Positions 7,063 to 35,645 of a DNA stretch of 36,632 nucleotides are shown here, one piece after another. Within the stretch, counting starts at the first letter, position 1, and the number at the start of each line of letters is the position of its first letter. This stretch comes from Patescibacteria group bacterium. GTDB taxonomy: Bacteria; Patescibacteriota; Minisyncoccia; Phycocordibacterales; Phycocordibacteraceae. The notes below the pieces were generated by a model. The model saw nothing but the letters and a program-made list of their open reading frames with translations, did not search any database and was not told where the DNA came from. Where the stretch lies: contig JAGWIS010000005.1 in assembly GCA_028866135.1 (NCBI GenBank), positions 1 through 36,632 of the forward strand, read 5' to 3'. Position numbers and translations under genes: made by a program.

Positions 7063-7163
7063 GCCCCGTTGGATAATTCCGGCTCGGGATTTGAAAGACG
7101 ATACGTTCCAGGTGTATAGCTGTATGACTCAACAACAGACAGTTAAAAAATATCCAATGGGGC
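7063..7163. mobile_element. 101-bp inverted-repeat element across the comM start
   Basis: The ends GCCCCGTTGGATA (7063-7075) and TATCCAATGGGGC (7151-7163) pair over 13 bp, with one G-T wobble. ATGCCCGCC lies at 7057-7065 on the left, and CCCGCC followed by the rest of comM lies at 7163-7168 on the right, so the original gene probably began ATG CCC GCC GCG CGT. The element carries a possible promoter (TTGAAA 7091-7096, 18 nt, TATAGC 7115-7120) and the ATG now used by comM. It shares its end sequence with the elements at rplD and rplV. Confidence 0.65.
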
Positions 7164-26519: not shown

Positions 26520-26562
26520 GTCCCGTTTAGATGGCGAGTCCGCGAGCCCATCTAACGGGGAC
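26520..26562. repeat. Palindrome between second and third fusA end copies
   Basis: GTCCCGTTTAGATGG and CCATCTAACGGGGAC form a 15-bp stem with two mismatches. The right arm contains ATCTAACGGGG, the same end sequence as the element at rplD (30518-30619). The third copy of the fusA end starts at the next base. Confidence 0.65.
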
Positions 26563-29672: not shown

Positions 29673-29712
29673 GTCCCCCATGAGATAGGCGAAGACGCCA
29701 TCTCACGGGGAC
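29673..29712. repeat. Hairpin with GTCCCC/GGGGAC ends
   Basis: GTCCCC pairs with GGGGAC and TGAGAT with ATCTCA, separated by a bulge, with GGC/GCC inside. The ends resemble those of the palindrome after fusA (26520-26562). Confidence 0.55.
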
Positions 29713-29762: not shown

Positions 29763-29898
29763 GGGAATCAAGGAGCTTCCGAGCGACTATGATTCCCACG
29801 ACCCTGTTAAATCCCGCTTCGCGGGACATTCGCGAAGCGAATGTATTTAACAGGGTGAGGTTTTTCTAACCTCGCTTTCAGCTCGGAACAAAAACCTC
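29763..29898 (+). mobile_element. ACCCTGTTAAAT element, short form, before rplC
   Basis: Left hairpin GGGAATCA/TGATTCCC (29763-29797). Terminal repeats ACCCTGTTAAAT (29801-29812) and ATTTAACAGGGT (29845-29856). Between them are two back-to-back hairpins, CCCGC/GCGGG and ACATTCGC/GCGAATGT. Right hairpin GAGGTTTTT/AAAAACCTC (29857-29898), ending at the base before the rplC ATG. The same plan is seen before rplB, and before rpsS with a gene inside. Confidence 0.8.
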
Positions 29899-30517: not shown

Positions 30518-30619
30518 CACCCCGTTAGATAATTTATGATTAACGACCCGAAAAACAAAAATCTTTCTCAAACCGCTCGCGGAACGCGTGCGAGCTTGAA
30601 CGCTGTATCTAACGGGGTG
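30518..30619. mobile_element. 102-bp inverted-repeat element across the rplD start
   Basis: The ends CACCCCGTTAGATA (30518-30531) and TATCTAACGGGGTG (30606-30619) are perfectly complementary over 14 bp. The rplD ATG (30536) lies 5 nt inside, so the element encodes the first 27 or so residues of L4. A hairpin GCTCGC/GCGAGC lies inside. Confidence 0.75.
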
Positions 30620-31711: not shown

Positions 31712-31839
31712 AAAATGTTATGAATGAGATGAATTACATTTTCTTGAACCCTGTTAAATCCCGCTTCGCGGGACATTGCGAAGCAATGTATTTAACAGGG
31801 TATAAGGTTTCCTAATTCGCTTTGCTCATAACGAAACCT
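31710..31839 (+). mobile_element. ACCCTGTTAAAT element, short form, before rplB
   Basis: Left hairpin AGAAAATGT/ACATTTTCT (31710-31744). Terminal repeats ACCCTGTTAAAT (31748-31759) and ATTTAACAGGGT (31790-31801). Inside are CCCGC/GCGGG and ACATTGC/GCAATGT, the latter differing from the rplC copy by loss of one whole base pair. Right hairpin AGGTTTC/GAAACCT (31805-31839), with a loop containing TTCGCTTTGCTC. The rplB ATG follows 3 nt later. Confidence 0.8.
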
Positions 31840-32688: not shown

Positions 32689-32715
32689 TCGCTACGAATA
32701 GCCGAGTCCAAACGG

Positions 32716-32835
32716 ACAAAACGGCATTTTTGTCCTGCCGTAAGAATCATTTCTACCCGCTAGACCATGCATCTTACGCACGATAAGACGCTTCCTTATA
32801 ATATGGAAGTGTTTTGCAGGACGATGCCGTTTTGT
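32716..32835. mobile_element. Inverted-repeat insert after rplB
   Basis: The ends pair over 19 bp: ACAAAACGGCAT plus GTCCTGC on the left (32716-32738) with GCAGGAC plus ATGCCGTTTTGT on the right (32816-32835), with a small asymmetric bulge between the two parts. Inside are two hairpins, CGTAAGA/TCTTACG and CGCTTCC/GGAAGTG. The right end lies 4 nt before the leftover rplB 3' end. The plan, outer repeats with two inner hairpins, is like the short ACCCTGTTAAAT elements. Confidence 0.65.
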
Positions 32836-32839
32836 GCGA

Positions 32840-32917
32840 GGGACAAGAACTCCCAAAAAATATTCAAATGTCTTTATCATCAGTCGTCGCAAGGTAGGAA
32901 AGAAGAGAAAAGCATAG
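32840..32917 (+). pseudogene. Leftover original rplB 3' end
   Basis: Read in frame it gives GTRTPKKYSNVFIISRRKV plus GKKRKA and a TAG stop. It aligns with the last residues of L2 (RRPKKYSNTFIIARRKV plus GKRNK). Of the shared residues most are encoded by different codons (AAA/AAG, TCA/TCC, ATC/ATT, CGC/AGG, GTA/GTC, GGA/GGT). It has no start, so it is a relic of the gene end displaced by the insert at 32716-32835. Confidence 0.75.
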
Positions 32918-32987
32918 GCAAACGAAGCGAAGCGAGCCCTTTCGCTCGTCTGCGAGCGTTACGGGAAGCGCAAAGTGTAATTGCACA

Positions 32988-33021
32988 AAACAAAAGCCCC
33001 GCGCATGCGGGGCTTTTGTTT
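32988..33021. terminator. Bidirectional terminator after rplB region
   Basis: A 15-bp perfect stem AAACAAAAGCCCCGC/GCGGGGCTTTTGTTT with loop GCAT. The A and T parts give a T-run on both strands. It overlaps the stop of the convergent gene by 2 nt. Between 32918 and 32987 there is only a GCGAGC/GCTCG-type hairpin and no gene. Confidence 0.88.
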
Positions 33022-33793
33022 AACGATACGAAGGTTTAAGAATATCTGCGAGATCGGAAACGGGTATGCGCAGCGTTTGCGGACCCGCGGAGTAAGGGCC
33101 GACTTGGTACGGGGGAAACAGCACCACGAATTCCTTATTGTCGAAGAAAAAGTTCTCAAAATTCTTGTCCTCCGGCGTTGTGCCGCCGGTGATGAAGGAA
33201 GTATCGGCGTCCGGCCCGATGATCCCGGGGAGTTTTGCGCGGCTTATCGAAGAGAGCGTGTCGAGATACCGGGCACCTGGAGAGAAAAGGTCGGCAAGCG
33301 CAAGCGCCGCGCCCGTCTTCGCGTCGAAGGTGAACGTATGGAAGAACAAGTTTCCATGCGCACCAAGCGTGTCTTCGTAGATGGTGAAGATATAGGAAAC
33401 GGTGGAGGGGGAGGATGCGATGAGGTAGACGATTTGGAGCTTTTCCTTGCGGCCCTGATCGAATCCCATCATGTGGATGTCTTCGCTTGTGAGATGGTCG
33501 AAGTTCCCGTCGTTTTTGAACTGTGCGATCGTGTCGCGCACGAATCCTTCCATGAGCGCTCGCGCAGCGGCATCCTCCTCCGCCCCCGCACTCAAGAGAA
33601 GCGGCGTGCTCGTCGCATAATCGGCGCTGATGTCGTAGTACTGCGCGTGCTCGCGGTAGCCGCCCGCAGGCAGGACGATGCCCGCGCCTATTCCGGGCGC
33701 TTTCGCCGGAGCCGGCCGCATTGCCGCGTAGAGGGCAATGCCGATAATGATGATGAGAAGGGCTGCAAAGCCGATGATGGTGTCTTTTCGCAT
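33020..33793 (-). CDS. Membrane-anchored DUF3298/RsiV-like protein
   Basis: A 257-residue protein with an N-terminal membrane segment (about 6-26, IIGFAALLIIIIGIALYAAM) and an outer domain. The C-terminal part, FDAKTGAALALADLFSPGARYLDTLSSISR, then FFFDNKEFVVLFPPYQVGPYSAGPQTLRIPVSDL, has the typical look of DUF3298, the domain found in the anti-sigma factor RsiV and in PdaC. RsiV binds lysozyme; a similar wall- or lysozyme-sensing role is possible but not shown. TACACT lies 9 nt before ATG 33793. It is opposite in strand to all its neighbours and splits the ribosomal operon. Confidence 0.82.
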   Translation of the reverse strand: MRKDTIIGFAALLIIIIGIALYAAMRPAPAKAPGIGAGIVLPAGGYREHAQYYDISADYATSTPLLLSAGAEEDAAARALMEGFVRDTIAQFKNDGNFDHLTSEDIHMMGFDQGRKEKLQIVYLIASSPSTVSYIFTIYEDTLGAHGNLFFHTFTFDAKTGAALALADLFSPGARYLDTLSSISRAKLPGIIGPDADTSFITGGTTPEDKNFENFFFDNKEFVVLFPPYQVGPYSAGPQTLRIPVSDLADILKPSYR

Positions 33794-33847
33794 ATGCCAG
33801 ACAGTGTAGCAGAGCGCCAGCTCCGGACTTGCGTCGCTGGCCTTGAT

Positions 33848-33876
33848 TTGACGATAAAGTACAGATGTGCTAACCT
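33848..33876 (+). promoter_or_regulatory. Promoter of the 33964 gene
   Basis: TTGACG at 33848-33853, 17 nt, then TGC-TAACCT with the -10 at 33871-33876. This is the best -35/-10 pair in the window. It predicts a leader of about 80 nt. Confidence 0.6.
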
Positions 33877-33963
33877 GGAAGACAGAAACGTTAAATGTTA
33901 AATCAGGTCCCTTGAGATGAGTCGGTTTCCTAACGCATCGGATTCCTTAGGAGGAGGTACAAA

Positions 33964-34233
33964 ATGAGGAAGACCACGCTTCTCGTTTCCGTTATCGACG
34001 TTCTTACCAGGTTGGCGGGGGCCATGGAAGGGGAGGGCGTTTCCCTCGATCAATTCGAACTGCCAATAAACAGTCATATGGCGCGGCGTAACCTGGCCAA
34101 TTACCTGAAAGCAGGCTGTCCTGAAGTGACGTACGCTGACGGAATTAGCGACGAAGAACTCGCAAGGCATGGTATGGAGAGGTCGCCGTACGGGCGAGAA
34201 GGGGCAAAAGTCCGTCTCGGGCAGGGTTTCTGA
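33964..34233 (+). CDS. Orphan hypothetical protein, 89 aa, inside the S10 operon
   Basis: Unknown function. It looks helical throughout: TTLLVSVIDVLTRLAGAM, then SHMARRNLANYLKAGC and SDEELARHGM, with no signal peptide. The helix-turn-like middle could bind nucleic acid or a partner, but no family is recognised. A very strong Shine-Dalgarno AGGAGGAGGT lies 5 nt before ATG. With its own promoter and terminator it is a self-contained cassette between rplB and rpsS. Confidence 0.78.
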   Translation: MRKTTLLVSVIDVLTRLAGAMEGEGVSLDQFELPINSHMARRNLANYLKAGCPEVTYADGISDEELARHGMERSPYGREGAKVRLGQGF

Positions 34234-34243
34234 CAATCTTTTG

Positions 34244-34298
34244 GTCGCGTAGTTCTGGTCGCAAACTTTTGTTTGCGGCCAGGGCCACGCGGCTTTTT
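34244..34298 (+). terminator. Two-part terminator of the 33964 gene
   Basis: The outer stem GTCGCGT/ACGCGGC and inner stem CTGGTCGCAAAC/GTTTGCGGCCAG share a TTTT loop and are followed by TTTTTATTT. Confidence 0.85.
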
Positions 34299-34480
34299 AT
34301 TTATGATTCGCAGCTCATCAGGCTCGGGAGGGAAGCCGTGGAATCTCAATATAATTTAAACCACCTTTGTCAAGGTTCTGAAACAGCCTAGGATTTATGA
34401 GGGTGTTTGGGAACGGTACATTTGACTCTGGAGAGAGCTTCCTGTATCTTTCTCCTATCCCGCTGTGCGGGCTTTTTACT
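34299..34480. other. Gap before the GIY-YIG element
   Basis: No convincing gene. It holds a small terminator-like hairpin CCCGC/GCGGG followed by CTTTTT (34459-34477). A short open frame from ATG 34397 runs through that hairpin and has no ribosome-binding site or family resemblance. Confidence 0.4.
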
Positions 34481-34844
34481 GGAAACCAACGAGCCGAACG
34501 TGAGCGAGGCGACTATGGTTTCCGTAACCCTGTTAAATCCTTTCAAATAGCGCATGTATTATGTATATGTACTTTTGTCCGAAAAGGACGGGAGGTTCTA
34601 TACCGGATACAGTGCCAATTTGAAAGGACGATTTGAGGAACATATGCAAGGTCGGGTTGCCTCGACGACAAAGCGTTTGCCGGTGCGTCTCGTATATTAC
34701 GAAGCGTGTACCGATGAACGCGATGCTCGTCATCGGGAGCGTTATTTAAAAACGCATCACGGCAAACAGTTCCTGCACAATCGCCTCAAATCGTATTTAA
34801 CAGGGTGAAAGTTTTTCTAGTTCGCTTCGCTCACAACAAAAACT
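34481..34844 (+). mobile_element. ACCCTGTTAAAT element, long form carrying a GIY-YIG gene
   Basis: Left hairpin GGAAACCA/TGGTTTCC (34481-34523). Perfect 12-bp terminal repeats ACCCTGTTAAAT (34527-34538) and ATTTAACAGGGT (34795-34806). Right hairpin AGTTTTT/AAAAACT (34810-34844). The reverse complement of the left hairpin loop (TAGTCGCCTCGCTCACG) resembles the right loop (TAGTTCGCTTCGCTCAC), so the whole element is symmetric. The GIY-YIG gene fills the inside, and its last codons are part of the right repeat. The rpsS ATG follows 4 nt after the end. Confidence 0.82.
34554..34808 (+). CDS. Single-domain GIY-YIG endonuclease
   Basis: An 84-residue protein that is just the GIY-YIG nuclease domain: YVY (3-5), YTG (16-18), catalytic Arg26, His30 and catalytic Glu62 in [10 protein letters not shown]. 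All key residues are kept, so it is probably an active DNA-cutting enzyme. The last residues YLTG and the stop are encoded by the right terminal repeat of the surrounding element (ATTTAACAGGGTGA). It begins 15 nt after the left repeat, with no visible Shine-Dalgarno. As the only gene in the element it is the natural candidate to mobilise it and the shorter copies at rplC and rplB; that role is inference. Confidence 0.92.
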
Positions 34845-35213: not shown

Positions 35214-35310
35214 CCCCGTTAGATTTTTATGCCCACTACCAAACATACAGAAAAAAAGGCGACGAACTCCCGCATCACAAAGGCGGATGCCGTCGCAGTA
35301 TCCAATGGGG
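35214..35310. mobile_element. 97-bp inverted-repeat element across the rplV start
   Basis: The ends CCCCGTTAGAT (35214-35224) and ATCCAATGGGG (35300-35310) pair at 10 of 11 positions, one as G-T. GTG flanks it on both sides (35211-35213 and 35310-35312). The rplV ATG at 35229 is inside, 5 nt after the left end, as at rplD. The right end encodes AVSNGV, as it does in rplD, with synonymous codons. Confidence 0.65.
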
Positions 35311-35645
35311 TGATAAGCGCAACGCTCCAGAGCCATAATCAGACGCCGCGCAAAGTCCGCCTCGTGTCGGACCTCGTGAAAGGCAAGAAGGTGCAGGATG
35401 CGCTCGTTGCGCTCCAGTTCCTGCCGAAGCGCGCCGCAGAGCCGATCGCGAAGCTCATCAAGAGTGCCGTCGCGAATGCGAAAGTCGCGGGGGAGAATGT
35501 CGACGCGCTCAAGGTGCAGTCGATCACCGTCGAGAGCGCCGGCATGCTGAAGAAGTACATGCCGCGCGCCTTTGGACGCGCATCGCTCATCCGCCGCCGC
35601 AAGAGCCGCGTGAAGGTGACGCTTGCCGCGCCCGCTTCCAAATAA
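35229..35645 (+). CDS. rplV: 50S ribosomal protein L22 with element-encoded N-terminus
   Basis: A 138-residue L22; typical L22 is near 110. The core starts at about residue 30 (ISATLQSHNQTPRKVRLVSDLVKGKK) and includes KSAVANAKVAGENVD and MPRAFGRASLIRRRKSRVKV, the exit-tunnel hairpin region. The first 28 residues come from the inverted-repeat element at 35214-35310 and are Lys/Thr-rich without family similarity. GTG 35310 (GTG ATA AGC GCA) may be the original start. Confidence 0.95.
   Translation: MPTTKHTEKKATNSRITKADAVAVSNGVISATLQSHNQTPRKVRLVSDLVKGKKVQDALVALQFLPKRAAEPIAKLIKSAVANAKVAGENVDALKVQSITVESAGMLKKYMPRAFGRASLIRRRKSRVKVTLAAPASK

Follow-up and report, generated by a model that had tools for sequence, protein, structure and literature searches.

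Inverted-repeat elements of about 100 bp at the start codons of rplV, rplD, and other conserved genes: a probable MITE-like family

Rickettsia palindromic elements (RPEs) are 105 to 146 bp long, carry terminal inverted repeats, and lie in frame within conserved protein genes; they also occur in tmRNA and RNase P RNA (PMC2229807, PMC10969869). Bacterial MITEs such as Correia/NEMIS, ERIC, and RUP are about 100 bp long with inverted ends, show target duplication in part, and in some cases form in-frame ORF fusions (PMC2229807). The elements described here resemble these MITEs in length, inverted ends, occasional in-frame ORF fusion, and possibly partial target duplication, but the sole ORF that we saw within the same ends encodes a GIY-YIG nuclease-like protein. 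By described features, RPEs are the closest precedent, and in-frame coding insertions in conserved genes are found here as well. As read from the sequences, four features appear to depart from RPEs: fusions were found at the start codon and not within an ORF, conserved ends surround a free interior, members occur in many phyla, and a tRNA gene can hold a copy that itself carries a tRNA.

REP/RAYT and IS200/IS605-type elements have palindromic ends and conserved flanking tetranucleotides. Both features recur here, in contrast accompanied by 4-bp direct repeats. Integrative elements of tRNA genes insert there and supply the function that is lost; they span kilobases, have an integrase gene of their own, and rebuild only the end of the tRNA gene. 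In contrast, the copies in tRNA genes here, at about 100 bp, carry a whole tRNA and land in the D, anticodon, or variable regions.

The element at rplV and its insertion history

The window (the whole stretch of 36,632 nucleotides that was analyzed, contig C7) belongs to a 695-kb genome in 46 contigs, here called G000. A putative mobile element of 97 bp lies on the start codon of rplV (35214..35310, + strand), as judged from its end pair relative to shuffled sequence, orthologous copies in two genomes, and empty sites in relatives. Its left inverted end is CCCCGTTAGAT (35214..35224, +) and its right inverted end is ATCCAATGGGG (35300..35310, −), which codes SNG plus the G of a GTG; the layout is CCCCGTTAGAT-TTTT-ATG...GCAGT-ATCCAATGGGG. 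The sequence-only reading had recognized both ends and the 97-bp span, but had extended the element to 35312, thereby taking in a native TG beyond its last base at 35310. Its placement of an ATG 5 nt inside the left end holds to within one base, the distance past the 11-bp end being 4 nt at rplV and 5 nt at rplD.

Two sister copies are present in the window. One, of 98 bp, lies on the rplD start (30520..30617, +; layout CCCCGTTAGAT-AATTT-ATG...GCTGT-ATCTAACGGGG) and has an in-frame ATG at 30536. The other, of 99 bp (7064..7162, +), lies at the start of an ORF that, judging the protein by eye, we take to be YifB/ComM-like; it is flanked by CCCG direct repeats and has an in-frame ATG at 7124. 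The window thus holds three end pairs spaced 97 to 99 bp apart, against none in 100 dinucleotide shuffles, and these pairs are not due to chance. Across the genome, the broader pattern CCCYGTKRRAT finds 52 ends, chiefly CCCCGTTAGAT, CCCCGTGAGAT, and CCCTGTTAAAT, against 0 for a reversed control pattern. Forms of other lengths include a 39-bp hairpin with related ends, the left one diverged (26522..26560, strand not given), a 35-bp hairpin of the CCCCGTGAGAT subfamily (29676..29710, strand not given), and a related element of 278 bp directly upstream of rpsS (34528..34805, +), in which CCCTGTTAAAT ends surround a GIY-YIG ORF (34554-34808) that crosses the right end as LTG-stop. Related CCCTGTTAAAT palindromes lie between ribosomal protein genes at 29802-29855, 31749-31800, and 34528-34805, the last being the 278-bp element. 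The rplB-rpsS interval (32700-34500) contains ORFs unlike ribosomal proteins, for example at 33020-33793 on the minus strand.

The ends invite comparison with the attC-like recombination sites of integrons: GTTAGAT and ATCTAAC fit GTTRRRY and RYYYAAC, and the 7-bp cores are alike. Yet the order here is the reverse of that in attC sites, where the left core is RYYYAAC and the right core GTTRRRY; moreover, a GTGAGAT subfamily breaks GTTRRRY, and the interiors are mostly not gene cassettes. We therefore regard an attC identity as extremely improbable.

The element occupies the identical rplV site in two genomes of the same genus, G002 and G008, and the site is empty in at least a dozen relatives, including G023, G014, G034, G033, G016, G059, G019, G015, G029, and G413. 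In nearly all relatives that lack the element, rplV starts a few bases past the rpsS stop. These empty orthologous sites show that the presence of the element at rplV is an insertion. The empty site of G059 reads TAATATATGGCATACGCAACC and the occupied site of G008 reads TAAGATACGCG, element, TGGCCTACGCAACC; this comparison places the insertion between bases 1 and 2 of the rplV start codon, with the last G of the element and the native TG remaking a GTG at the old start codon position (35310..35312, +). At rplD, G000 alone is occupied and 11 relatives are empty. Close forms of the site in G023 and G015 read GCATAATTTTCATACYATGGCTAC whereas G000 reads GCATAATTTTCA, element, TGGCTACC, indicating that about 5 bases were lost there. 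Since occupancy differs between the two genes, the insertions are separate events, the one at rplV being older. Thus, as in MITEs, orthologous sites are occupied in some genomes and empty in others at both rplV and rplD, and from this comparison of genomes we infer that the element is mobile.

The sequence-only reading had also described GTG on both sides of the rplV element. This does not reflect a target duplication: the left flank ends in ACGCG in G002 and G008, and the right GTG is the composite just described. Among MITE-like properties, the elements are short with terminal inverted repeats, and 4-bp direct repeats of the kind produced by target site duplication flank 20 of 125 copies of the family (1.9 expected); neither rplV nor rplD shows such a 4-bp duplication. 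Many of the remaining copies carry TTCA, TTTA, CTTG, or CCTG on the left and TGAA, TAAA, CAAG, or CAGG on the right.

Coding across the element and start fusions in other genes

In rplV and rplD alike, reading from the element's internal ATG leads in frame into the native protein. As now read, rplV (35229..35645, +) would begin with an L22 N-terminal extension, MPTTKHTEKKATNSRITKADAVAVSNG, coded by the element from this new ATG (35229..35309, +); the equivalog match begins at residue 37 of L22 and at residue 58 of L4. The frame across the rplV element is open in three species (G000, G002, G008). For the 27 element codons, comparison of G000 with G002 and G008 gives a pS of 0.44 to 0.50 and a pN of 0.19 to 0.20, while in the remaining two frames the contrast is weaker or reversed, and several contain stops. 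This frame-specific pattern, from a small sample of 27 codons in three species, supports translation of the L22 extension under moderate constraint. Translation of L22 would start at the internal ATG of the element, although the rebuilt GTG could be the true start instead.

The right ends of the two elements read VSNGV with synonymous codons, as the sequence-only reading had pointed out (GTA TCC AAT GGG GTG in rplV; GTA TCT AAC GGG GTG in rplD). The rplV right end shows two changes, both synonymous, one of which disrupts a stem pair. This bears on whether the ends form an RNA stem that regulates the ribosomal-protein operon in cis by masking or exposing the start codon. The ends can indeed pair in RNA, as those of any inverted repeat can, and fold z-scores are −2.2 for rplV and −4.1 for rplD. 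However, G000 lost one pair of the stem at rplV through a synonymous change, the element is missing from most relatives at both genes, and identical ends occur in unrelated genes, in tRNA genes, and at intergenic sites across many phyla. We consider such a regulatory role very unlikely.

Start fusions recur in other genes. When 147 copies, not all of them distinct, were scanned in a uniform way, reading from an internal ATG for at least 70 codons passed through the end in the SNG frame in 20 cases and in the LTG frame in 5. Start fusions for which the protein family was confirmed involve a MurA-type protein (L110), the uracil-DNA glycosylase Ung (L112), a ThrRS-type protein (L113), S2 (L190), a DegT aminotransferase (L191), a GltX-type protein (L199), trigger factor (L222), glycogen synthase (L229), and UvrC (L236), and AtpD is fused in the LTG frame (L143). 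We read a further fusion partner (L176) as L3, for which a Pfam search gave no match. At two loci (L158 and L251), the 4-bp direct repeats overlap an ATGAAA.

Scoring 266 ends against gene starts, with mechanical ORF calls, placed the start inside the element at 26, up to 30 nt downstream at 17, 31 to 100 nt downstream at 26, and 101 to 400 nt downstream at 55; the other 142 had no nearby codirectional ORF of 100 codons. Start codons are therefore a recurrent but minority landing site. This result divides the proposal of the sequence-only reading that start codons are targeted. Its core observations stand: there is an insertion, it lies exactly at the start codon, the rplD and rplV cases are independent, and about 10 other conserved genes have in-frame start fusions. 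As a rule, however, targeting is not supported, since most ends lie upstream of genes or away from any near codirectional gene and other copies split tRNA genes or sit in the RNase P RNA gene and rRNA operon of G000. A transposition system that specifically recognizes translation start codons could account for the 26 ends with a gene start within the element and for the excess of SNG-frame over LTG-frame fusions. On the other hand, the majority of copies lie away from starts, and the end-flank motifs seen at starts are frequent among the copies in general. The favored flanks TGAA, TAAA, CAAG, and CAGG resemble ATGAA; this preference, together with survival of frame-keeping insertions only, can explain the start-codon hits, and such survival can explain the frame bias, so we think dedicated start-codon recognition improbable. 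A flank-shift test of the exact start position was uninformative, as in-frame shifts within the gene also score.

Range of the family and tRNA genes within tRNA genes

GTDB species genomes were scanned for CCCCGTKAGATW-N62-92-WATCTMACGGGG, yielding at least 118 stretches. The matches listed come from Brocadiaceae, Cloacimonadota, WOR-3/Stahlbacteria, Neomarinimicrobiota, Omnitrophota, Planctomycetota, Verrucomicrobiia, deltaproteobacteria, many CPR groups, and one archaeal record. Copy lengths cluster at 93 to 109 bp within the searched range of 86 to 116 bp. When these loci were searched again with no limit on length, copies fell into groups of about 25 to 40, 45 to 69, 85 to 109, and 260 to 280 bp, the group sizes being biased by selection of loci with the 86-to-116 pattern; we count the absence of lengths from 110 to 259 bp at these loci as informative despite this selection. 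Interiors are mostly without sequence relation to each other, and no conserved core was seen in them by eye. In one genome (L182), near-identical copies have differing flanks.

Two further placements in G000 concern RNA genes. A 105-bp element lies immediately upstream of the 23S rRNA gene (L122, 3424-3528; contig C36), with TTCG direct repeats at its flanks; it is present in G002 and G008, with a similar one in G413, and shows an unusually stable fold (z −6.1) and apparent compensatory changes. The RNase P RNA gene (L121, 1006-1803; contig C30, 28605-29402), which scores only 50.6 bits against an Rfam cutoff of 100, apparently contains four CCCCRTGAGAT-type elements, one of them 278 bp long with a GIY-YIG ORF.

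A tRNA gene lies inside 14 copies. For 12 of them, the flanks once joined are most similar, on the same strand, to enclosed tRNAs for the same amino acid, as for a tRNA split by the element. ARAGORN assigned the joined flanks an identical isotype and anticodon in 8 of the 14 when 0 to 8 bases were trimmed from each side; many trims were tried, which makes the anticodon match permissive and the same-amino-acid similarity the stronger evidence. At some loci, L111 and L244 among them, the split and enclosed copies both look intact, whereas at three (L139, L188, and L201) the split copy appears decayed by eye around an intact enclosed tRNA, which favors replacement over splicing.

Splicing of this kind, an intron-like excision of the element from RNA that restores the native start codon or tRNA, would be consistent with the joined flanks giving an intact body in several split tRNAs and with G008, which without the element would read GTG GCC TAC. 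It is difficult to reconcile with the open and constrained element frame in rplV and with the split tRNAs of L139, L188, and L201, which miss a half or the anticodon. In addition, a group I or II intron would not fit into about 97 bp, and Rfam scans of loci with copies returned no self-splicing intron family at the gathering threshold. We give excision very little credence.

Other ideas were set aside. If the interior were copied from the target, it should resemble the flanks; such homology is clearly beyond shuffles only in 13 copies with a tRNA, and any excess in the rest is marginal at most. A hairpin apex as general target is too weakly indicated, with 8 stems of at least 6 bp against 3.3 expected and a control maximum of 8. 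Of the tRNA-Ala copies in G413, the inner one shares 95% identity with that of G029 and the flank one 91% with those of G023 and G001; similarity does not single out the native copy, as G413 is not clearly nearer to G029 or to G023 and G001. In the right flank of a tRNA-Arg(TCT) element (L109, 1077-1173), GTCTAACGGGG resembles a further end and additional tRNA-like sequence is present, which suggests repeated nesting. We found no replacement tRNAs in MITEs at the title and abstract level of a literature in which subscription journals were largely outside the scope.

A candidate mobilizer and the proposed account

MITEs share their ends with an autonomous element that encodes a transposase. Here, GIY-YIG ORFs rather than a known transposase were seen within the same or related ends: ORFs of about 85 to 89 aa lie within CCCCGTTAGAT ends at two loci (L163, 263 bp; L167, 279 bp), where the right end is crossed as LTG, and G000 has one within CCCCGTGAGAT ends (278 bp) and two within CCCTGTTAAAT ends. 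By this association alone, the GIY-YIG protein is possibly the mobilizer, through a hypothetical transposition mechanism. GIY-YIG forms with exactly these ends are rare, occurring in 1 of 118 genomes, so the mobilizer could be something else. GIY-YIG genes of the same genus are flanked by quite different inverted repeats of 12 to 19 bp at three other loci (L072, L074, and L082), hinting at a wider tie between such genes and inverted repeats. A literature search at the title and abstract level, largely outside subscription journals, found no match for inverted-repeat elements with GIY-YIG genes from these lineages.

We propose that a non-autonomous, MITE-like element with 11-bp inverted ends and a variable interior of about 75 bp inserted into the rplV start codon, between its bases 1 and 2, in an ancestor common to G000, G002, and G008. 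Its last G would have remade the old start as GTG, and its ATG would have opened an in-frame route across the right end, giving L22 a 27-residue extension that ends in VSNG. Recurrence at starts would reflect a short flank preference together with survival only of insertions that make good the damage to the gene. The element would be mobilized by an enzyme acting in trans, for which the GIY-YIG protein of the 263- to 279-bp forms is a possible candidate. We consider this account, taken as a whole, to be probably correct.

A broader reading is more tentative, and we hold it somewhat doubtful: these elements may form a pan-bacterial class of about 100 bp in which exchangeable interior cargo supplies the function of the broken gene, such that essential genes can serve as landing sites, and a stand-alone GIY-YIG nuclease may move them. 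If so, protein genes would receive a start codon and leader as cargo, split tRNA genes would receive a complete tRNA with the identity of the broken one, and the stand-alone nuclease would be a new kind of mobilizer. Genes for tRNAs are apparently replaced from within by such elements, which raises the question of how an element of 100 bp acquires the tRNA identity of its target. For protein genes, small mobile elements appear to remake repeatedly the N termini of highly conserved proteins, among them ribosomal proteins, tRNA synthetases, ATP synthase, and trigger factor, and automated annotation will read the element-coded N-terminal tails as native.
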